Assembly: GCA_016868665.1 (NCBI GenBank) | Contig: VGGK01000004.1 | Coordinates: 1-64,000 of the forward strand | Direction of reading: 5' to 3' | Source: Chlorobiota bacterium | Lineage (GTDB): Bacteria > Bacteroidota > Chlorobiia > Chlorobiales > Chlorobiaceae | DNA: 64,000 nucleotides | Part shown: piece by piece, positions 1,471 to 17,467 of the stretch | Layout of the letters: each line of letters begins with the position of its first letter | Numbering within the stretch: the stretch's first letter is position 1 | Position numbers and translations under genes: made by a program | The notes under the pieces: model-generated | The model's input: the letters and a program-made list of their open reading frames with translations, nothing else | What the model was told of the DNA's origin: nothing | Databases searched by the model: none

Positions 1471-2937
1471 TTATTGTGTCCACTTTTTTGCTGCGAGTTC
1501 GGGCCGAGCGCGACGTTCGTATGCTTCAATCCAAGTATTTAATCGCTCAGACCGCTTCATAAGATGGGGTGGGAGCATAAAGGTTATCGGATTGCTGTCA
1601 ATACCCTGAGGCGAAGTGATCATCATTACTTTCTTAATAGCAAAAACAATATCGGAAAGATCTAAAAGCTCTTCATCCGTCAACCCGGTGGAAGCACGAA
1701 ACCATCGCTCACTGGTAATAAACTCAACATCATCAATATCCGTTATCTGCAAATGACCATCATCAAGAGCGAGCTGCCAAAGCTTTGAGCCTGGTGTAAG
1801 CAAATGCCATTGAAGGTAAACCTGTACTCCCCAAGTTAGTACCAAGTTTGCTATTTGACTGATATTTTCCCTAATATCCCGTTTACTCTCCCATGGAAAT
1901 CCAATAATAAAAGAAAAAACAGTATCCTTCGCAATTCCGTATTCATGCATCGTCTTTGCACACTTTTCTATACTCTTTGGCTCAATATATTTACCTATAC
2001 GACGTAGCGTATTTGGAAGAAATGATTCTGCCCCTATTAGCACTCCCTTTGTAAAGGGAGCAATGGCTTCTACCAGCTTCTCATTCAAAAGATCCTTTAC
2101 CCGAGCGTCAAAGGTCGCCTGAAAATCAAGACCGCGGTCAGAGATGATTTTTGAGATGAGAATGGCACGATCATGATCTGAGGTAAAGCAATCATCAACA
2201 ATAGTGAAATAGCGGTAGAGCGTTTTTGAGCGGGCTGACTCAAGAAGCTCGATTTTATCCACGAAGCGCTCAGGAGACATCGGTCTCCAGCTTTTCTTGA
2301 AGGGTATTGCACAGAAAGCGCAGTTTCCAAAGCACCCCCTTGATGACTCCACGGTCAAGGACCGATACTTCCCTGGAGTCAGTCTATCATATAAAGGTAA
2401 AGGCAGCTCATCAAGCTCCTGTGGTGAAAGCAATGATGCCATTGGGTTCTGTATAACCCCACCAGAAGCATTTTTGACTACTAGACCTGGAACATCCTCA
2501 AAGCCTATTCCCTTGCGTATGGCATCGAGTAATGGCATTAACACCTTTTCCCCTTCGCCTCGAACGATATAGTCTACAGGATAACGCCGAATAATATCTT
2601 CAGCAAACAAGGTGGCATGAATGCCCCCTAAAATAACGATGGCAGAGGGCTTCTTGCTTTTTAACCACCGAATAAGAAGGCCGCATCCAGGCCAGTTTGT
2701 AGAGTTTGAAGAAAAAAACAGCACATCATATTGATCAAGCTGTTCAACAATCTGTTCGTCAAAAGATTCATTACAAACAAGATCAACTACAGTCACATCA
2801 ATGGAATAACTATAAAGAATACCTGCCAATAGATTCGGCCCAAGGTGCGGATTGCTCCGCACCTTGTCCAGATAACCTGGTCGAAGGACATCTCCATCTC
2901 TCTCAATGATCGGGGTAATAACAAAAGCGGTACGCAT
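1471..2937 (-). CDS. B12-binding radical SAM enzyme beside a RiPP-like precursor
   Basis: This 488-residue protein has an N-terminal cobalamin-binding Rossmann domain (about residues 30-140, with VILGGIHATL and VDYIVRGEGE). A radical SAM domain follows with C202, C206 and C209 in SRGCFGNCAFC. The domain order is that of BchE/P-methylase-type enzymes, which perform methylations and ring chemistry on unreactive carbons. No DxHxxG motif is seen in the B12 domain, as in other members of this class. The gene starts 12 bases after the stop of a 102-residue protein with RiPP-leader features, so the two are probably one operon and enzyme and substrate. C-methylation of that peptide is inference. No peptidase or exporter gene is in the window next to it. 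Confidence 0.8.
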   Translation of the reverse strand: MRTAFVITPIIERDGDVLRPGYLDKVRSNPHLGPNLLAGILYSYSIDVTVVDLVCNESFDEQIVEQLDQYDVLFFSSNSTNWPGCGLLIRWLKSKKPSAIVILGGIHATLFAEDIIRRYPVDYIVRGEGEKVLMPLLDAIRKGIGFEDVPGLVVKNASGGVIQNPMASLLSPQELDELPLPLYDRLTPGKYRSLTVESSRGCFGNCAFCAIPFKKSWRPMSPERFVDKIELLESARSKTLYRYFTIVDDCFTSDHDRAILISKIISDRGLDFQATFDARVKDLLNEKLVEAIAPFTKGVLIGAESFLPNTLRRIGKYIEPKSIEKCAKTMHEYGIAKDTVFSFIIGFPWESKRDIRENISQIANLVLTWGVQVYLQWHLLTPGSKLWQLALDDGHLQITDIDDVEFITSERWFRASTGLTDEELLDLSDIVFAIKKVMMITSPQGIDSNPITFMLPPHLMKRSERLNTWIEAYERRARPELAAKKWTQ

Positions 2938-2949
2938 GCATTATCACTT

Positions 2950-3258
2950 TTATTCTGCTGGTGTAGGCGTCGATAAAACGATAACAGCAGCTATAACCGC
3001 AACAGCAGCCGGATTTTTTGTTTGAGGCACTAACCCGCTGACAATTGCACTCAAGTTTTGCGTATTTAACTTTTGTATGGTTTCTTCATCCATCACGATC
3101 CCCTCTTTCTTAAGCATATCTACATAAGAGGTACTGAAACGTGTGCGAAACTGATCATCGAAAACCAGATTGTTAATCAATGCTGCCATCTGAGTCCTTG
3201 TGGTGTTAACTTTTACACCATCGCGTTCAAACTGTAAACAATCATTATCGCTTTTCAT
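2950..3258 (-). CDS. putative RiPP precursor peptide (leader plus hydrophobic core)
   Basis: This 102-residue protein has an AAGGAGTT ribosome binding site just before its ATG. Residues about 22-70 contain a helical, acidic block with LINNLVFDDQFRTRF followed by MLKKEGIVMDEETIQKL. The pattern (L..L..D..FR..., then a GI..DEE..KL turn) resembles NHLP/Franean1-type RiPP leaders, in which a folded leader recruits the modifying enzyme. The C-terminus switches sharply to a small, hydrophobic, low-charge tail (AAVAVIAAVIVL, then STPTPAE), typical of a core region. It is encoded directly upstream of a B12 radical SAM gene. A GL.PQ junction near residue 75 may mark the cleavage point, which is inference. 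It could alternatively be a small membrane-tail protein. Confidence 0.55.
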   Translation of the reverse strand: MKSDNDCLQFERDGVKVNTTRTQMAALINNLVFDDQFRTRFSTSYVDMLKKEGIVMDEETIQKLNTQNLSAIVSGLVPQTKNPAAVAVIAAVIVLSTPTPAE

Positions 3259-3503
3259 AATGCAACTCCTTTTTGGTTTTATTAGAAAAACAATACCACA
3301 CTAAACTGCACACACCTAATTATCCTTATCCCAAATCTGCTATTATAAATATCAAATAAACACGCAGATAGCTTAATCCACTCATTCACATACTGATTCA
3401 CTAACCTTTTTTTTAATATATTAAATCCACTACGGAAAATAACACAAGCCCGAAAGCAGAAAGCACTTGATTGTTGAAATCGTTTAGTTTGTGACGATTC
3501 GCC

Positions 3504-4991
3504 TCAATTCCCATTGTTCAGCACCCCAAGAATCTCCTGAAAGCTTGCAAGACCGGCTTCGAGGTTTTCGATGATCTCTCCGGCGAGCAGATCGGGGTCG
3601 GGTAGGTTGTCGAGGTCGGCGAGGCTTTTGTCTTTCAGCCAGAAGATGTCGAGGTTGGTTTTGTCTCGGGCAACTATCTCATCGTAGCTGTATTTGCGCC
3701 AGCGGCCTTCCGGGTTTTCCGGTGACCAGGTCTCCTTGCGTTTGTGGCGGTTTGCGGGGTTGTAACACTCTACGAATTCCTGAAGGTCCGAGGCTTTCAG
3801 CGGGCTTTTCTTCAGGGTGTGGTGCACATTGGTTCGGTAGTCGTAGAACCAGACTTCGCGTGTCCAGGGATCTTTATCGGCAGGCATGACGTCGAAAAAA
3901 AAGACATTCGCTTTCACTCCCTGCGCATAAAAGATACCGGTTGGCAGCCTGAGAATGGTGTGCAGTTCGGTCGTTTCAAGCAGTTTCTTCCGCACCAGCT
4001 CCCCCGCGCCCCCTTCAAACAGCACGTTATCGGGAAGCACCACGGCGGCCTGCCCGTAAACTTTCAGGATGGTATGGATATGCTGCAGAAAGTTAAGCTG
4101 CTTGTTGGCGGTTATCGCCCAGAAATCCTGCCGGTTATAAACGAGACTCTCCTTTTCCTGCTCCTCTTCGTCATTGGTGAAGGTCATGCTGCTCTTCTTG
4201 CCGAAAGGAGGATTGGTCAGTACGTAATCGTACTTGATCCCATTATCGGCAACAAGGGCATCGGTGGATGAAACGGCGACATTCCCGTCAAGCTCGCCGA
4301 TGTTGTGCAGAAACATGTTCATCAGGCAGAGCCTTCTCGTTCCGGGCACAATTTCGTTGCCGCCAAACGTTCGATGCTTCAGAAACTCCTTTTCATCCCT
4401 ATCAAGCTTGTAGCGGGTTGTGATGAAATCGTAAGCTTTCAGAAAAAAACCGCCCGTTCCGCACGCAGGATCGCCGATGGTTTTCCGGGGTTCAGGACGG
4501 ACGCACTTCACCATGATCTCGATCAGAGCACGGGGCGTAAAGTACTGCCCTGCTCCGCTTTTGGTATCTTCGGCGTTCTTTTCGAGCAGTCCTTCATAAA
4601 TCTCCCCTTTGACATCGGCCCCCATCATCACCCAGCTCTCCTTGTCGATCATGTCGATAACCTTGTAGAGCATGGCCGGGTCGGCAATCTTGTTCTGCGC
4701 TTTCAGGAATATCTGCCCAAGCATGCCCGGCTTCTGGCCAAGATCGCGAAGTAGTCCGGTGTAGAGCACTTCAAGCTCTGCACCGCGCTTTGCCTTGAGT
4801 TTCGGCCAGGTGTACTCGGACGGAATGTCGATTGTGCGGTTGTATGGTGGCCTTGTGTACTCATCGGCCATTTTCAGAAAGATGAGAAAGGTCAACTGTT
4901 CAAGATAATCGCCATAGCTCACGCCGCTGTCGCGCAGCACGTGGCAGAACGACCAGACTTTCGAGACGATGGATGACGGAGTGTTGGTCAT
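3504..4991 (-). CDS. hsdM: type I restriction-modification methyltransferase subunit HsdM
   Basis: This is the adenine-N6 methyltransferase subunit. Starting at the ATG at 4991 gives 495 residues with the HsdM N-terminal helical domain, the SAM-binding motif DPACGTGG at about 174-181 and the catalytic NPPF at about 260-263. Upstream in-frame codons would extend it into hsdS, so I chose the ATG 10 bases after the hsdS stop. It is the last gene of the hsdR-tcmP-DUF5131-hsdS-hsdM operon. With HsdS it should form the M2S1 methylase and with HsdR the full restriction complex. Length and motifs are complete, so it is probably active. Confidence 0.93.
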   Translation of the reverse strand: MTNTPSSIVSKVWSFCHVLRDSGVSYGDYLEQLTFLIFLKMADEYTRPPYNRTIDIPSEYTWPKLKAKRGAELEVLYTGLLRDLGQKPGMLGQIFLKAQNKIADPAMLYKVIDMIDKESWVMMGADVKGEIYEGLLEKNAEDTKSGAGQYFTPRALIEIMVKCVRPEPRKTIGDPACGTGGFFLKAYDFITTRYKLDRDEKEFLKHRTFGGNEIVPGTRRLCLMNMFLHNIGELDGNVAVSSTDALVADNGIKYDYVLTNPPFGKKSSMTFTNDEEEQEKESLVYNRQDFWAITANKQLNFLQHIHTILKVYGQAAVVLPDNVLFEGGAGELVRKKLLETTELHTILRLPTGIFYAQGVKANVFFFDVMPADKDPWTREVWFYDYRTNVHHTLKKSPLKASDLQEFVECYNPANRHKRKETWSPENPEGRWRKYSYDEIVARDKTNLDIFWLKDKSLADLDNLPDPDLLAGEIIENLEAGLASFQEILGVLNNGN

Positions 4992-5001
4992 GAGTACTGC
5001 G

Positions 5002-6498
5002 TTAATGCGGGTGTTTCTTGGATTGTTTTTTTTCAGCCCTGATCCGCTCAAGCAGCTTCTCGGCAGGCTCCCAGTCCGGATCGTTGCGGGTTGCCGTTAA
5101 CTCCTCCTCACTGAGCAGCTTGCCCTCAAACGCTTTTTTCAGAATGCTTTGCCGTAATGCCTCAGCTTTTTCAAGCGATTCGCGGATTGTTGCCTCCATG
5201 TTGTCGCAAACCGAAAGGCGTGTCTCTATTTCCTGCACGATTTGCTCTTGCTCTTGGAAAGACAGAATCTGTATCGGCAATGAATTGATGATCTGAGAAT
5301 TCAGATTAGCCATTGTCGTTCCTCGACTCTTTTTTTCGAGATAATCGACAATACGTCTTTCACTCAGAATCAGGCTATACAGTTTTGCAAAAAAGTTTTG
5401 CCCTAATCGGATATACAGGCTGCCAGTTCCACAGAACCAGCCTGCCTGAGCTTTTAAAACAGGAGCCGTTCTCCCCATCTCTCCTCTTCTGCCGATAATT
5501 ATATCATTTTCTTCAAGGAAATATTGAGGTAAGGAATTCGCTTTATCTATTGAGATTCTCACTCTTGGAATGAGCTTTTGCTCTTTGATATGTTTTGGAT
5601 TTATCAGCGGAACACCATTTTCTGTATAATCATCATAGTGTAATTGGCTCCCAAATGGACCGATCTGAATTTTCCGAGCAATATCCCCTAATCTCACCCA
5701 TCTCCACCCTTCCGGCAATTCAGTCAACTCATCAAGTTCCACTTTTGCAAGAGGAGTTACCGGCTTGAGTTTCTTACCCTGATTTTTTGCAGCCTGCTCT
5801 CGATCTGCCTTGATTGTATCGAGAAGATCCTGTGCTGACGGGAGGTTGGCTTGCTGTTCGCGCCATAATTTTGTGAGTTCACCTTCAAACGCTTGCTTCA
5901 GAACAGCCTGGCGATAGACTTTAAGCTGCTCCTGCGCTTTTTTCAGGCAGGCAATCCCGTTATCAAGTTCGCTGAAAAGCTGCTCGATTTTGGCAACGAT
6001 GGATAGTTGTTCTGGTTTTGGAGGAATAGGAATTAATACACTTTTAAAAAAAACCGTAGGGACTCTCAACTGCCCGGCACTACCGGTCATATTTCTTTTC
6101 GCTTCTTTTCGAAAAGCAGTCTGAATAACAAAAAAGAATAAATATTTTTTATCTATCGAGCTATGTAAACGAGAAACATGAAATTCTGTTGAGCCATATC
6201 CAACACCATTCACCAGATTGTCAAGAACGGCGACTTTTCCGTTCTCCATGCAGGGCGTAATTTTAGCAAAAATCAGGTCCCCGTTTACAAATGAGGTATA
6301 TCCTTTTTTTACATCCTTATGCTTTCTGATATTTTTCAAGTTGTAACAACCTGAAACCTCCTCAACACAAGCCATAGGCAAAAAAGAAACATCACTGTCT
6401 TCATTCAAGTCATAATCCAGTGATTTCGGATTAATAACCGAGATATCTTCATGCTTTGCCCAGACCCAATTTTCAGGAATAGAGTATTTGTTTTTCAT
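5002..6498 (-). CDS. hsdS: type I restriction-modification specificity subunit HsdS
   Basis: This 498-residue protein (ATG at 6498, 20 bases after the preceding gene) has the two-fold layout of HsdS. The first target recognition domain starts with IPENWVW, and a long coiled-coil spacer (QLFSELDNGIACLKKAQEQLKVYRQAVLKQAFEG) follows. The second recognition domain starts with LPEGWRWVRLGDI, and a second coiled coil ends in RQSILKKAFEG. The two recognition domains read separate half-sites of a bipartite target. The target cannot be predicted from sequence alone. Both halves are full-length, with no sign of the frameshifts that often inactivate hsdS. Confidence 0.93.
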   Translation of the reverse strand: MKNKYSIPENWVWAKHEDISVINPKSLDYDLNEDSDVSFLPMACVEEVSGCYNLKNIRKHKDVKKGYTSFVNGDLIFAKITPCMENGKVAVLDNLVNGVGYGSTEFHVSRLHSSIDKKYLFFFVIQTAFRKEAKRNMTGSAGQLRVPTVFFKSVLIPIPPKPEQLSIVAKIEQLFSELDNGIACLKKAQEQLKVYRQAVLKQAFEGELTKLWREQQANLPSAQDLLDTIKADREQAAKNQGKKLKPVTPLAKVELDELTELPEGWRWVRLGDIARKIQIGPFGSQLHYDDYTENGVPLINPKHIKEQKLIPRVRISIDKANSLPQYFLEENDIIIGRRGEMGRTAPVLKAQAGWFCGTGSLYIRLGQNFFAKLYSLILSERRIVDYLEKKSRGTTMANLNSQIINSLPIQILSFQEQEQIVQEIETRLSVCDNMEATIRESLEKAEALRQSILKKAFEGKLLSEEELTATRNDPDWEPAEKLLERIRAEKKQSKKHPH

Positions 6499-6518
6499 CA
6501 AGTTCTGCTCATTCCTTA

Positions 6519-7241
6519 TTAACCAAACAACATTTCCGGTGTCTGATCCCAAACGCGCCCGTCGAGCATTCGTCCGGCTTTCTTTTTGTTGAACCCGCCC
6601 CATTGCTTGAAGAAGAACGGCACATCGGCTGCAATACATTGCTCCCTGATCTCCTGCACCCATTCCGGGTTCATCGGCCGGGCATTTCTGCCGCTCTCTC
6701 CTCCGACAATGACCCAGTCGATACCCTGCAGATTCATTTCCGGCAATGGCCCGAGCAGTGGCTCGCAGGAGAGAAATTTAACCCGAGCATCGGTATCTCT
6801 CAGCCGGTCGATGCGGTGCATCGTGTTGCGGCTCTCCACCGATACACCCATCCAGATATTATGCGCCCAGTCAAGCCATCTTTCGCTTTCGTAGTATTTG
6901 AGCACATCAGCCCTCTTGGTCAGAACCTGAAAGACATGATGCGGATTCTGCTTCATGACGCTGAACACCTCCCGGATATAGTCTATAGGTACATCTTTGT
7001 GGAACAAATCGCTCATGGAGTTCACAAATACCACACGCGGTTTTTTCCATCTGAACGGCTCCCGAAGCGTTTCGGGGTGCAGGGTAAGCTGAAACCCGTT
7101 ACGGTATTTTTCAACGCCCATCCCCTGAAGACGTTTTGCGAACGCCTCAGCGTAGCAGAACCTGCACCCATCGGATACCTTGTCGCATCCCGTCACAGGA
7201 TTCCAGGTCATCTCCGTCCACTCTATATGTGATTGCGCCAT
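6519..7241 (-). CDS. DUF5131 / phage Gp37-Gp68-like three-cysteine protein
   Basis: This 240-residue protein carries C19, C26 and C29 in WNPVTGCDKVSDGCRFCYAE (C-x6-C-x2-C). This is the hallmark of the Gp37/Gp68 (DUF5131) family, regarded as radical-SAM-like. Further conserved stretches are VFVNSMSDLFH, FQVLTKRA, LGPLP and WVIVGGESG, all typical of the family. Members regularly sit beside a three-Cys-motif partner protein, and here tcmP is 2 bases upstream. The biochemical role of the pair is not known to me. Their insertion between hsdR and hsdS suggests a link to DNA defence or modification, which is inference. Confidence 0.85.
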   Translation of the reverse strand: MAQSHIEWTEMTWNPVTGCDKVSDGCRFCYAEAFAKRLQGMGVEKYRNGFQLTLHPETLREPFRWKKPRVVFVNSMSDLFHKDVPIDYIREVFSVMKQNPHHVFQVLTKRADVLKYYESERWLDWAHNIWMGVSVESRNTMHRIDRLRDTDARVKFLSCEPLLGPLPEMNLQGIDWVIVGGESGRNARPMNPEWVQEIREQCIAADVPFFFKQWGGFNKKKAGRMLDGRVWDQTPEMLFG

Positions 7242-7243
7242 AG

Positions 7244-8131
7244 TTACACCTTTCTGATAATATCCCTTGCTATTTTTACTGCCGTCGGATTATTTGAAGC
7301 AAAGACGAAGTGATAAATCGGGACATTTCGGCTGTTGCGAAGAACCAGCGGTTCCGTCGTCACATGTTTCCAGATTGTTTTCAACTGCCGTATATACAGG
7401 TCTGCAATGTGATGAATCGCTCCCTGTATTTTTTCTATAACCGTCTCTTCACCGAACAAGGTCATTTTTGTTTCCCTTCGAAAAAATTCCTCCCTTATTT
7501 CCGCTTCCGACAACCCGAAAAAAGATTCGAGCCGGGCAATATGTTCCAATTTTGCTGCCCTGTCAAGCAACCTGTTCACAATGACGCCGGTCGGAATGAG
7601 AATCCAAAGGTCGGATCGCGTTTTTGCAAGCCCGGCTATCGCATTCCATTCAACGTGCATTCCGAATGGATCAAGCAACACAAGAGCAGCAAAGTTGTCT
7701 GTTCGTAATGTTTTTCCAAGCTGCACAAGCTCCAGATTGCAGTCTTCCGGCCTGAACAGCAGTTTTTTCCCTTCCGATTCAGGCAACGCCATCAGGCGGG
7801 TTTTCAGTTTATCAAGACTCTGACGATCATCAACAAAATAGTAGTAATCGAAACGCTTGTCCAGCCGTATGACCCGCTCCGCTGAACCTTTATATCCTTC
7901 TTCCTCCTCGGCAGTGAATTGCAGTTGCTCATACAACAACGTCTTCGTGGTTTGCCTCGATCCCGTTCCAGCGAATCCGTCAAAGTAAATGGTTTTCCAA
8001 TATGGGTTTGCCTGCATTATGGTCAGGTATGCATTGACATATTTTGCAAATGCATCAAGCTTCCGTTCCGTCCAGGGACCACCCCAGCTCTCCGAAGGCT
8101 CTCTTACAAAGGTTTGTCCATTTCCATTCAT
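7244..8131 (-). CDS. tcmP: three-Cys-motif partner protein TcmP
   Basis: This 295-residue protein has the TcmP pattern: a Trp-rich N-terminal segment with WTERKLDAFAKYV, then IYFDGFAGTGSR (a nucleotide/SAM-binding-like loop), VLLDPFGMHVEW and a C-terminal helical part. The FAGTG and DPFG stretches resemble Rossmann methyltransferase motifs I and IV, so a nucleic-acid methyltransferase-like fold is likely; activity is not established. The start overlaps the hsdR stop by 4 bases (ATGA) and the DUF5131 gene follows 2 bases after its stop, so the three are translationally coupled. Confidence 0.85.
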   Translation of the reverse strand: MNGNGQTFVREPSESWGGPWTERKLDAFAKYVNAYLTIMQANPYWKTIYFDGFAGTGSRQTTKTLLYEQLQFTAEEEEGYKGSAERVIRLDKRFDYYYFVDDRQSLDKLKTRLMALPESEGKKLLFRPEDCNLELVQLGKTLRTDNFAALVLLDPFGMHVEWNAIAGLAKTRSDLWILIPTGVIVNRLLDRAAKLEHIARLESFFGLSEAEIREEFFRRETKMTLFGEETVIEKIQGAIHHIADLYIRQLKTIWKHVTTEPLVLRNSRNVPIYHFVFASNNPTAVKIARDIIRKV

Positions 8132-10923
8132 ACCGTCAACGCTTCGTTAAGTTCGTCAATAATCCCATCCATACGGTCGCCGAAAAGCTGCCACATCCTC
8201 CCGCGACCCCCATAGGCGTCGAACGGCGTGAGATCAAGGTCGTCCTGCTCCATGTGGATACTTGAAGCGATATGCTCCTTGATCATGCGAAGCCAGTTCA
8301 TCTGCTCTTCGGTGAACTTGACACCGGCGCCGGAGTGCCTGCTGAACACCCACTGCTTGAAGTTCGCGTCAACGGTTCTGTCGTAAACGGTCAGAACCGG
8401 ATCGATGCCGGTTACCCGGCGGATGAGCGCAACAAGGGCAATGAGTTCGTTTTTCGGGCTCGAACCGTTAACCTTTTCGATCTGTTCATAGGCATGCCAG
8501 ATTCGCATCGGGGCAAGCATCGGCCTATCGGCATTGAGACGGTCAAGCACTTCCCTGATCATCCTGAAGGTCAGCTCCCTGCGCCGGTAGGGCTGATTGT
8601 AAAATATTCCGAGCGCGGTGATTTCATCCTTATGCGCTTCAAGATAGGCCTTGAACTCCCCGATCAGTTCTGCTGCCTTTTCGCCACTTTCTGCAGCCCA
8701 TTTTGACCTCGTTACCTGATCGAGATTGACCGTATCGATGATCTGCTCATGCACCCTGCGAACGGTGTCGATAAATTCGTTCAGCGAGCCGTTGAAGGTC
8801 GATCGGGCTTCGTGAAGGAGCGCCTGCTGCGCCTGTTCGAGAAACATGGTTGTTTCGCCTGAAGGGCTTTCGCCCATCTCCTGAACTGCCTCCGGATTCA
8901 TCTCCCGGGCTTTCCGGTTGATGCTGTCGGGATCCCATGAGTCGAGCAGTTCGCGGACAACCTGATTGATGCTCTTGCCTCCGGTTTTGTCGATAAATGC
9001 CGCACGCTCCGATTCGGTAATCTGCTTGTCGAGCCGGGCAAGGCGGTTGGCAAGCGAGGTGTAGAGATCCTCATCCTGTGCCCCGAAGGTTACAGCTTCA
9101 AGCAACTCCTTCAGCGATGCCGTCGGCTTGCGTTCGAGCGGGCGGCTGTCGGTCTTCAGGGATTTTGTCACCCCTACGGCGTCGATGATCACGAAATGGG
9201 TTTTGGCGGAAGTAACCGAAGGGGTAACCTTTTTCAGATCGTCAAAACTGAGCGTCCGTGTGCCCCTCCCTTTCATCTGCTCGAAATAGTTGCTGCTTCT
9301 GACGTCGCGCATGAACAGCAGGCATTCGAGCGGCTTGACGTCGGTGCCGGTGGCTATCATATCGACAGTAACGGCTATTCTCGGATTATACTCGTTCCGG
9401 AACCGGGCAAGCAGCGATTTCGGGTCGTCTTCGGCCTTGTAGGTTATCTTGTTGCAGAATGCGTTCCCTTCGTTGAACTCCTCACGGATGATCTGGATGA
9501 TATCGTCGGCATGGCTGTCGGTCTTTGCAAATACAAGGGTCTTGGGCACCTCGGTTCGTCCGGGAAACAAAACCGGAAGTTCATCACGGAACGCGCGGAT
9601 GACGTTGCGGATCTGGCTCGGGTTCACCACATCCCGGTCAAGCTGCGACGACGTATAGACAACATCATCTTCAAGCTGCTCCCACCTTTTGCGGCGAGAG
9701 AGCTTTTCGCGTTTGTCGATAAACTCGCGAGCCCTTATCCGGGAGCCGTTCCGGGTTATTTCAGTCTCGATGGTATAGACATCGTAACCGACGTTAACCC
9801 CGTCTGCCACGGCTCGTTCGTGACTGTACTCGCTCACGATGTTTTCCTTGAAAAAACCGAACGTGCGGTTGTCGGGCGTTGCGGTCAGGCCGATCAGGAA
9901 TGCGTCGAAATAGTCGAGCACCTGCATCCAGAGGTTGTAGATCGAGCGATGGCACTCGTCGATGACGATGAAGTCGAAAAACTCTATGGGAACCTTCGCA
10001 TTGTATGCCACCGGAACCGGTTCTTTCGGTTGCCAGCTTTTTTCAGCAGGATTTTGCTCCTCAAGCGAAGCGTCAAGCTCCTCCCCTTTCAGGATGGAAT
10101 AGAGCCGCTGGATGGTTGTGATGCAGACCTGGCTGTCGCCGGCAATCGAGCTTGACTGCAACCGCTGCACGTTGTACAGTTCTACGAATTTTCGGTTATC
10201 GTCGTTCGGCGTGTATGCCCTGAACTCCTGCTCTGCCTGTTCGCCGAGGTTGCGGGTATCGACCAGAAAGAGTATCCGTTTGGCATCGGCATATTTGAGC
10301 AAACGGTAAATGAAGGTAATGGCAGCGAAGGTCTTGCCGGAGCCGGTCGCCATCTGGATCAGCGCTCTGGGTCGTCCGTCCCGAAAAGAGCTTTCGAGGT
10401 TGTTGATTGCCATGGTCTGGCACTCCCGCAAAGCGGCAGGATTCAGTCCGGGAATATCATAAAGGCGTTCCCGGAGGCTCCGCTCCTGGCCGAGCCATTC
10501 ACGAAATGTCTCGGGACGGTGAAAAGTAAAGACGGGACGTGAACGGGGTTTAGGATCGCGGTAATCGGTAAAGCGGGTCAACGTGCCGGTGCTTTCGTAA
10601 ACAAACGGAAGAGGAGCGTTGTTGAGATGCTTCAGCTTGCTTTCGGCATATCCGGAAGACTGCTCTTCAACCACGGTAAGATGATGCCCCTCATCCTCTT
10701 TTTTCGCCTCGATAACCCCAACCGGCCTGCGGTCGACAAACAGAACATAATCGGCTTCAAGACCATCCTGTGTAGGATAATGCCTCACGGCTATACCTGC
10801 CGAAACCTGCCAGTCGATACGATTTTTTTCCTGAACAGCCCAATCAGCCAGCCGCAACTGTACATCGATAACATCCCGCGCAATCTGCTCGGGAGTCTGG
10901 TTCAGAGAATATCGTTCCTGCAT
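8128..10923 (-). CDS. hsdR: type I restriction endonuclease subunit HsdR (EcoEI-like)
   Basis: This 931-residue motor-nuclease has a RecB-type nuclease domain at the N-terminus (D58 in GLEADYVLFVD and E72-A-K74 in GVIEAKK). A superfamily 2 helicase follows, with Walker A ATGSGKT at about 192-198, a DECH box (FIVIDECHRS), LTATP and the QMKGRGTRT motif VI. A C-terminal EcoEI-type helical domain binds the methylase. The ATG follows a non-coding stretch holding a conserved inverted repeat. It is the first gene of the operon. All catalytic motifs are intact. Confidence 0.94.
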   Translation of the reverse strand: MQERYSLNQTPEQIARDVIDVQLRLADWAVQEKNRIDWQVSAGIAVRHYPTQDGLEADYVLFVDRRPVGVIEAKKEDEGHHLTVVEEQSSGYAESKLKHLNNAPLPFVYESTGTLTRFTDYRDPKPRSRPVFTFHRPETFREWLGQERSLRERLYDIPGLNPAALRECQTMAINNLESSFRDGRPRALIQMATGSGKTFAAITFIYRLLKYADAKRILFLVDTRNLGEQAEQEFRAYTPNDDNRKFVELYNVQRLQSSSIAGDSQVCITTIQRLYSILKGEELDASLEEQNPAEKSWQPKEPVPVAYNAKVPIEFFDFIVIDECHRSIYNLWMQVLDYFDAFLIGLTATPDNRTFGFFKENIVSEYSHERAVADGVNVGYDVYTIETEITRNGSRIRAREFIDKREKLSRRKRWEQLEDDVVYTSSQLDRDVVNPSQIRNVIRAFRDELPVLFPGRTEVPKTLVFAKTDSHADDIIQIIREEFNEGNAFCNKITYKAEDDPKSLLARFRNEYNPRIAVTVDMIATGTDVKPLECLLFMRDVRSSNYFEQMKGRGTRTLSFDDLKKVTPSVTSAKTHFVIIDAVGVTKSLKTDSRPLERKPTASLKELLEAVTFGAQDEDLYTSLANRLARLDKQITESERAAFIDKTGGKSINQVVRELLDSWDPDSINRKAREMNPEAVQEMGESPSGETTMFLEQAQQALLHEARSTFNGSLNEFIDTVRRVHEQIIDTVNLDQVTRSKWAAESGEKAAELIGEFKAYLEAHKDEITALGIFYNQPYRRRELTFRMIREVLDRLNADRPMLAPMRIWHAYEQIEKVNGSSPKNELIALVALIRRVTGIDPVLTVYDRTVDANFKQWVFSRHSGAGVKFTEEQMNWLRMIKEHIASSIHMEQDDLDLTPFDAYGGRGRMWQLFGDRMDGIIDELNEALTV

Positions 10924-15577: not shown

Positions 15578-16504
15578 TTAAAAAATGATCAAATCACCAT
15601 ATCTGATTTTCATTTTACAAATGAAGTCTGGCTCCACACTATTAACATAAGCTAACATACCCTTCAATTGATTTACTTCATCAACATCAAGATGACCTTT
15701 CGTATATTTATAAATCTTTGACCTTAGCATTCTTTTTTTATCATGACCAATCGATATGCGCCCATCATTCGAAAGAACTAAACCAGTAACCATTCGCTTA
15801 TTAGCCTTGGACAAAAATAAAGTCTTATCTTCATTTAATTTTAGCCTTGGATAAGGAATAATATCCAACAAACGCTTTATCTCAAAAAAAACCTCGCGCC
15901 TTAACAGCGAATCGCTCATAGAAAAAGTCATATCATCAGAATATCTCGTATAGACAATACTTCTACTACTACAAAATTCTACAACTCTTTTATCAAAATC
16001 AGACATGATTATATTAGAAAGCAGTGGCGATGATGGCGCGCCTATCGAAAGACAATAATCCCCTTTATTTCTAGCATAAAACAATATCTTCACCATCTCT
16101 TGAATATCCATATCTGAGTAGCCAAAATCCTTATAAAGCGAAAAATACGAAAGAAAATCCCCCGCCTTGATTGAATAAAAAAAATCCTTAAAATCCAATT
16201 TCATTAAATATTTACTATAGCAATGCGGACTCACGTTCGATAAAAGACCGCATCCTTTCACATAAGCTCTTGCTGCATCATGAACCACAAATTTGCATAA
16301 CACATTTCTGACGATCCAATATTGAAGAATCTTTACCTCTTTTGCTGGCTGAGCTATAACCCTATAACCCTTACCCGAACGCTTTGGAATAGAATATACT
16401 TTGTAACGATACGGCGCACTAAGAATCAACTTTTTCAATTTTTTCTCAGGCAACATGAAGTCATTCGACATTTGACTTATTAGCAATTCATTTGCCATAA
16501 TCAT
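15578..16504 (-). CDS. retron reverse transcriptase
   Basis: This 308-residue retron-type reverse transcriptase has N90-x3-H94 (retron X region), LDFKDFF at 103-109 (first catalytic Asp), GAPSSPLLSN at about 155-164 and the catalytic YSDD at 188-191. The retron-specific Y region V239-T-G241 follows. It should bind the retron ncRNA, prime from a branching guanosine and make msDNA. The start is 3 bases after the effector stop; a second ATG lies two codons on. It is AT-rich compared with its surroundings, as retrons often are. Length and all motifs are complete. Confidence 0.95.
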   Translation of the reverse strand: MIMANELLISQMSNDFMLPEKKLKKLILSAPYRYKVYSIPKRSGKGYRVIAQPAKEVKILQYWIVRNVLCKFVVHDAARAYVKGCGLLSNVSPHCYSKYLMKLDFKDFFYSIKAGDFLSYFSLYKDFGYSDMDIQEMVKILFYARNKGDYCLSIGAPSSPLLSNIIMSDFDKRVVEFCSSRSIVYTRYSDDMTFSMSDSLLRREVFFEIKRLLDIIPYPRLKLNEDKTLFLSKANKRMVTGLVLSNDGRISIGHDKKRMLRSKIYKYTKGHLDVDEVNQLKGMLAYVNSVEPDFICKMKIRYGDLIIF

Positions 16505-16507
16505 AAT

Positions 16508-17467
16508 TTATAAATTATTATGAAATGAACGCCATGCCTTAACCTTATTATCTTGGTTTTTTTTATAAAACTCAACAAACATAGAACTTGATAAAAAAGC
16601 ATTTGATTTTTTTTTATAAGACCATTGCAACCAATCAATAGCAGAGTTTTTTGTAATAAAAAAATCACTATTTCCATAGTGCTTAAAGCCAACCAAACCC
16701 AATGCTTTTAGTAAATTTAGATATTGATCAACATTATTTACATACTTATTCAATCCAAACAATTCTAAAAGCAAACGAAACTCCTCAACAGTTGCTATCT
16801 GCATAACACTTAGCGACGATGCAATCAACAACATAATATGACCAACATCTTCACTTTTCCACAAACTAGTGCTTTTTCGTTTTTCTAAAAATTCTCTTAG
16901 GGCTTGATATAAGCCTGAGGCATCAGGGAAATCATCATCTTTATACTCATCATTCTCAACCCCTCTTTTCCAATTATAAACATATATCGGATTATCACCT
17001 CCGTTATTAAAAGCCCTATTTTTTAAATATTTTATAGGACCTTTCCAAATAAACGATTTCTCGCTTGAAACATCATCTTCATGTAAAACCACAACAAGTC
17101 TATCTTGAATATTATCCAAAACAGAAAAAGAGCCAAGTTCTGCAATCGCTCCGGCACTTTCAGAAAAAACAACAGTTAGTAATGAAATAGCTGCCAAATC
17201 TTTTTCAAACGTCAGCAAATCAGGATAACCTGATCCATCAAAATATTCAATAACCTTCTCTGCTAAAACAATATTTTTACAAATAGAATCATCTTTACTC
17301 TTAACATATGAGTAAAATATATCACGACACGATCCATAAAAACTTGACCCGGATGCAGCCAACTTTCCGCCACAAAGAAAGATATATGATGGGAAATTAA
17401 TGACGCGGGTGTTTGCCAAATCAATAGATTCTACCCACTTACTAAGGACAGGTGTAACCTTCAGCAT
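16508..17467 (-). CDS. retron effector, nucleoside deoxyribosyltransferase-like (type II-A)
   Basis: This 319-residue protein has an N-terminal domain with INFPSYIFLCGGKLA, SCRDIFYSYV and the catalytic-type block FSESAGAIAELGSF (E103, E110). These are features of the NDT-like N-glycosidase effectors of type II-A retrons such as Ec86/Eco1. The C-terminal part resembles a small helical/winged-helix domain. As in Eco1, it lies between the ncRNA and the reverse transcriptase. In that system msDNA and the reverse transcriptase form a filament that holds the effector inactive until phage infection; I infer the same here. The start follows the ncRNA 3' repeat (a2) by about 10 bases. Confidence 0.88.
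   Translation of the reverse strand: MLKVTPVLSKWVESIDLANTRVINFPSYIFLCGGKLAASGSSFYGSCRDIFYSYVKSKDDSICKNIVLAEKVIEYFDGSGYPDLLTFEKDLAAISLLTVVFSESAGAIAELGSFSVLDNIQDRLVVVLHEDDVSSEKSFIWKGPIKYLKNRAFNNGGDNPIYVYNWKRGVENDEYKDDDFPDASGLYQALREFLEKRKSTSLWKSEDVGHIMLLIASSLSVMQIATVEEFRLLLELFGLNKYVNNVDQYLNLLKALGLVGFKHYGNSDFFITKNSAIDWLQWSYKKKSNAFLSSSMFVEFYKKNQDNKVKAWRSFHNNL

Follow-up and report, generated by a model that had tools for sequence, protein, structure and literature searches.

In the window (the whole 64,000-nt stretch of DNA that was analysed, base 1 of which is the end of the contig), an open reading frame (ORF) of 102 codons with an ATG start was called on the minus strand at positions 2950–3258. 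A ribosome-binding site, AAGGAG, could be read directly 7 nt 5′ of the ATG (3266–3271, minus strand). The ORF agrees with the 102-residue protein originally predicted here. The next gene on the minus strand (1471–2937) starts 12 nt past the stop codon of this precursor gene and encodes a 488-aa B12-binding radical SAM enzyme, the presumed core C-methyltransferase. Residues 31–134 form a B12-binding domain (2536–2847, minus strand; PF02310, 54.5 bits, cut-off 32.1) and residues 197–359 a radical SAM domain (1861–2349, minus strand; PF04055, 52.1 bits, cut-off 29.5). Both scores exceed the cut-offs, which bears out the claim of an adjacent radical SAM gene with a cobalamin domain.

A two-gene unit shared with Chlorobium ferrooxidans

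In C. ferrooxidans DSM 13031 (L040), the precursor and enzyme genes occur in the same order, with a gap of 5 nt. The two precursors share 65% aa identity, all 102 codons could be aligned without an indel, and dN was 0.24 versus a dS of 1.4; judged by this indel-free homologue and these rates, the ORF is a real gene. The G+C content of the precursor gene (40%) and the enzyme gene (44%) is lower than that of the window (54%). Among the 86 genomes of the family that were searched, 65 of them from the same genus, that of C. ferrooxidans was the only further one with the precursor. The system occurs in green sulfur bacteria, as proposed, but its spread there, sporadic at two of 86 family genomes, had been overstated. 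The precursor was not found in plasmid and phage collections or viral contigs, and a sequence search of the PDB with the precursor pair gave no match. Six weak phylum-wide matches (L004–L009, E 0.002–0.008) were dismissed as chance, being located inside or across unrelated genes.

Comparison of the DNA of the two neighbourhoods gave one match (1501–3270 in the window; 72.6% nt identity), which begins at the ribosome-binding site and stops where the enzyme gene ends. Outside it nothing matched and the flanks on both sides are unrelated, indicating that the unit consists of exactly two genes, as the idea of a minimal system had implied. Homologues of the small gene lacking a radical SAM neighbour would have spoken against the original prediction; the one true homologue has such a neighbour, whereas eight other Chlorobium genomes hold remoter genes of the Os1348 family (77–85 aa) that stand without an enzyme. 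Only two homologous pairs exist, which limits every evolutionary argument made below.

No exporter, peptidase or epimerase adjoins the pair, as had been noticed at the outset; the contig continues for 1.47 kb past the enzyme gene, and the region beyond lies outside the data. A protease, exporter or immunity gene linked to the pair was likewise not found. Peptidase_C39 was absent from both the window genome and that of C. ferrooxidans, in a search that was positive in 8 of the 14 genomes of a control set, and no YydG-type epimerase reached E 1e-8 in either genome. A C-terminal fragment of IS21 istB (51–257) is located at the contig end beside the cassette.

The precursor carries an Os1348-like leader region

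Residues 23–69 of the precursor (3052–3192, minus strand) matched three RiPP leader models: NF038399 (Os1348 family NHLP clan; 23.6 bits, E 3.9e-5, against a curated cut-off of 40 bits), TIGR04509 (NHLP-related RiPP; E 1.1e-3) and PF14407 (Franean1_4349; E 2.7e-3). The C. ferrooxidans precursor matched NF038399 (21.9 bits, E 1.4e-4) and TIGR04509 (E 1.2e-4) at the same place, and did not match PF14407 at E 0.05. Reversed precursor sequences, used as a control, matched no RiPP family. The similarity is therefore significant and in the right register, and a modifying enzyme is linked; since no leader match reaches its curated cut-off, formal membership of the Os1348 family is not claimed here. 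The classical NHLP/Nif11-type leader model TIGR03793 did not match at E≤10. Consequently, of the leader families proposed for checking, the RiPP-type leader was recovered in the Os1348/NHLP clan and more weakly as Franean1_4349, and the classical NHLP type was not. The precursor sequence has no Gly-Gly cleavage site, in contrast to classical NHLP and Nif11 precursors, which agrees with Os1348, PosA and PflA, likewise without one.

Upstream of this domain, an N-terminal extension at residues 7–20 (FERxGVKVNTT; 3199–3240, minus strand) is conserved in the pair and was predicted as a β-hairpin in a structure model of low confidence (pLDDT 62). A fold search with this model gave no match, and the model was given no weight. 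Profile–profile comparison with other Os1348-like peptides of Chlorobium gave an E of 0.0013, yet a probability of just 18%. As a whole, the sequence comparisons give good support to a resemblance of the precursor to RiPP precursors with an Os1348/NHLP-clan leader.

The enzyme is a class B radical SAM protein of its own lineage

The enzyme combines an N-terminal B12-binding domain with a radical SAM domain that carries the CxxxCxxC motif (C202-x3-C206-x2-C209; the Cys residues are invariant in a 13-row alignment), and together with the fold match this places it among the class B (cobalamin-dependent) radical SAM enzymes. It was 76% identical to the C. ferrooxidans enzyme, its only close relative within the genus, and about 25% identical to the next relative. 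When 17 other proteins were included in a tree, the window and C. ferrooxidans enzymes paired on a long, separate branch; in sequence terms, the enzyme represents a separate lineage. Its best NCBIfam model was ApyD (NF050148; 107.5 bits against a cut-off of 750), followed by the curated models TIGR04013 (88 bits) and BchE (86 bits), both far under cut-off. An assignment to the ApyD family or an aminopyruvatide cluster is not indicated, as the score falls short and no MNIO or P450 neighbours were recognised among the nearby window ORFs. The enzyme was rejected as BchE (86 bits against a cut-off of 481) and as BchQ/BchR, all of which form separate, well-supported clades in the tree. Plasmid matches from Burkholderia, Solidesulfovibrio and Deltaproteobacteria belong to other clusters with multiple radical SAM genes and are only about 26–28% alike, and at three loci with enzymes of about 27% identity (L041–L043) no Os1348-like small ORF was seen adjoining.

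When the enzyme profile was compared with solved structures, MgmA (9ccb) ranked first (E 5.6e-16). The predicted fold (pLDDT 77, pTM 0.77) again matched MgmA first (E 9e-21), followed by OxsB, AprD4 and TsrM. Because the presumed core is aliphatic and contains no aromatic, Cys or His residues, C-methylation is the most likely reaction, and we infer that the enzyme likely C-methylates the precursor core.

B12-dependent radical SAM enzymes also carry out non-methylating chemistry. The pair could accordingly be a RiPP system in which the enzyme subjects the V/I/A core to a different radical reaction, such as formation of a C–C bond (cyclopropylglycine from Val), desaturation or ring formation. 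The separate lineage of the enzyme, at about 25% identity to any other row compared, and the presence of the non-methylases OxsB and AprD4 in its fold list would fit such a reaction, and the radical SAM enzyme TvgB is known to turn Val into cyclopropylglycine (PMC9062424). However, a methylase is nearest both by sequence and fold (MgmA) and among the curated models (ApyD), and the reviewed class B enzymes that act on RiPP peptides are C-methylases (PMC11285071). We therefore consider a non-methylating enzyme unlikely, although it is the best of the alternatives to C-methylation of the core.

The hydrophobic tail is the most conserved segment

The presumed core TKNPAAVAVIAAVIV corresponds to residues 80–94 of the precursor (2977–3021, minus strand). 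Residues 82–101 include no charged residue, and the mean Kyte–Doolittle value of residues 83–97 is +2.37, which confirms the hydrophobic, uncharged V/I/A tail that had first drawn attention to the protein. In the window and C. ferrooxidans, all 15 aa of TKNPAAVAVIAAVIV are identical, and 6 of the 15 codons are synonymously changed. In the leader domain, 30 of 50 residues were kept (60% identity) and 12 of those 30 codons are synonymously changed, so that the rate of synonymous change is equal in the two segments. The core has no nonsynonymous differences at a pS of 0.46, and the pN of the leader is 0.23. The difference between the core and the rest of the precursor gave a Fisher p of 0.0009 for one sequence pair and a segment picked after viewing, and the longest identical run in the precursor pair gave a permutation p of 0.029, again for one pair and a segment picked post hoc.

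Since the tail is identical in both genomes despite the synonymous changes in its codons, it appears to be under selection. This pattern suggests that the tail is functional and is the most constrained segment of the precursor, and it speaks against a leader joined to a freely varying core. That the core is better conserved than the leader is the opposite of the usual RiPP pattern.

Such conservation could also be expected if the small protein were neither cleaved nor modified but assisted the radical SAM enzyme as a partner or scaffold, anchored in the membrane by its hydrophobic tail, and the enzyme acted on another substrate. The hydrophobicity of the tail equals that of a short membrane helix, and the lack of a linked protease or exporter, and of any C39-type peptidase in either genome, would be explained. 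On the other hand, the N-terminal part is similar to RiPP leader families, whose members are substrates; the tail is short, with about 15 hydrophobic residues from a Pro onward; and Os1348-type precursors elsewhere also have no linked protease, yet are modified (PMC12636437). A scaffold role is consequently improbable in our judgement, even more so than a non-methylating enzyme.

Defence genes surround both copies

Both copies of the cassette sit among defence genes. In the window, the flank is a type I restriction–modification locus (3504–10923) with hsdM, hsdS and hsdR. Two genes inserted in this locus (6519–7241 and 7244–8131) match the PADLOC candidate PDC-M41. A retron St85/type II-A (15578–17467) is located 12 kb from the cassette; its reverse transcriptase, at 341 bits, and its NDT-like effector, at 186 bits, each exceed the NCBIfam cut-off. 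The flank in C. ferrooxidans contains AbiEi/AbiEii and an HNH nuclease. This setting fits a mobile, competition-related cargo of the kind reported for lanthipeptides (PMC12715929), though it is no proof of one.

A defence or toxin-like cassette, whose hydrophobic peptide, modified or not, kills the producer or competitors under phage attack, would also suit these surroundings, including the retron, and the enrichment of lanthipeptide clusters near defence systems (PMC12715929), but it is very improbable, given that defence islands gather unrelated mobile genes, that n = 2, and that the enzyme matches many unrelated B12-dependent radical SAM families at least as well as it does PADLOC PDC-M51A (43 bits).

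Other RiPP-like loci

A Chlorobium locus (L089, G304:C290, 2910–6117) encodes a 93-aa Os1348-like precursor, a YydG-like radical SAM epimerase and an ApyD-like B12-dependent radical SAM enzyme (310 bits), in this order, and is probably an undescribed RiPP cluster that combines an epimerase with a C-methylase. C. ferrooxidans has a second Os1348-like precursor (L090, G225:C20, 2908–4258), which ends in CVTGGGGGCGIA and overlaps a downstream PapB-like radical SAM/SPASM gene. The orphan 77–85-aa Os1348-family proteins of eight Chlorobium genomes (L091–L098; MPTTPLSTEAKQ...) are strongly conserved, have no modifying enzyme nearby and occur in differing neighbourhoods. At another locus (L109, G324:C463, 6278–10555), a radical SAM/SPASM enzyme precedes an ApyD-like B12-dependent radical SAM enzyme (194 bits). 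Several small ORFs lie upstream, and the locus is possibly another RiPP cluster. Nif11/NHLP-like precursors were seen at three loci (L100 in G075, L101 in G105 and L103 in G278), in L103 as a run of about eight; L100 and L101 also hold genes that by their appearance are putative NHLM-type exporters.

The recurrence in the genus of an Os1348-type leader paired with a radical SAM gene supports the RiPP reading of the window locus. Several different precursors of the Os1348 type are present in green sulfur bacteria, and their radical SAM partners differ. RiPPs are not new to this group, since a 2010 report described NHLP precursors from Chlorobium luteolum together with heterocyclisation genes and an exporter (PMC2887384).

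Proposed model

We consider it probable that the locus is a minimal, horizontally mobile RiPP cassette that consists of a precursor and a class B radical SAM C-methyltransferase, with the protease and exporter encoded elsewhere. The 102-aa precursor would comprise the N-terminal extension, a helical Os1348/NHLP-clan leader and a V/I/A core of 15–23 residues, and the leader would present the core to the downstream enzyme. The enzyme would C-methylate the core at unactivated sp3 carbons, with Cβ of Val and Ile as the likeliest sites and Pro or Ala as possible ones. A protease encoded elsewhere would then release the modified hydrophobic core, which would probably act at membranes, e.g. as a competition peptide. 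On this model, C. ferrooxidans DSM 13031 would be expected to contain a fragment around NPAAVAVIAAVIV that is methylated.

A bolder version, which we put forward only tentatively, is that the pair represents a new class of RiPP, a two-gene cassette whose hallmarks are an Os1348-like leader extended by a β-hairpin, a V/I/A core free of aromatic residues and Cys, and a stand-alone B12-dependent radical SAM enzyme of a new lineage, in which multiple methylation would yield a membrane-active peptide of the tert-leucine type, carried as defence-island cargo.

Overall, the leader, the linkage, the selected core and the two-gene unit of the candidate RiPP have stood, and the likeness to proteusins and the group-wide spread have not. 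If the model is correct, the cassette would rank among the smallest RiPP systems based on a radical SAM enzyme, with one precursor, one B12-dependent enzyme and no epimerase or exporter seen, and would offer a simple substrate–enzyme pair for the study of C-methylation of unactivated aliphatic carbons. A homologue is available in C. ferrooxidans DSM 13031, a strain that is in culture and has been sequenced.

Comparison with known systems

Polytheonamide, a proteusin modified by PoyC and PoyB, shares with the window pair a hydrophobic core bearing Val and Ile, and PoyC methylates Cβ of Val and Ile (PMC11285071). The original comparison with proteusins nevertheless had to be given up: the enzyme scores far under the cut-off of the PoyB/PoyC family (TIGR03975, 64.3 bits against 281.85) and has CxxxCxxC instead of CX7CX2C, the classical NHLP leader (TIGR03793) and a GG site are absent, and no epimerase is adjacent. 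ApyD likewise is a B12-dependent radical SAM enzyme in a RiPP pathway, where it methylates Cβ of Tyr (PMC11117315), whereas the core of the window precursor lacks Tyr and the pair is not flanked by an MNIO, P450 or methyltransferase gene.

The Os1348-type precursors PosA and PflA of Pseudomonas resemble the window precursor in length, in a leader with a D-x-x-F-R block and in having neither a double-Gly site nor a linked protease. They are real RiPP precursors (PMC12636437) and are modified by neighbouring enzymes (PMC12636437, PMC7726476). The window precursor differs from them in a score below the family cut-off, an additional N-terminal extension of 20 residues and a different core, and their modifying enzymes are HEXXH and MNIO–nitroreductase proteins instead of a B12-dependent radical SAM enzyme.

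In the literature, no described equivalent of the precursor–enzyme pair was found, as expected for an undescribed minimal system. The nearest solved structure, MgmA, the C-methyltransferase of an MCR glutamine in methanogens, is about 21% identical in the structural alignment and acts on a metabolic enzyme rather than a RiPP, yet its target is an sp3 carbon within a polypeptide, as is presumed for the window enzyme. The pair is a so far unreported variant; both NHLP precursors in Chlorobium and B12-dependent radical SAM enzymes of RiPP pathways are already known.
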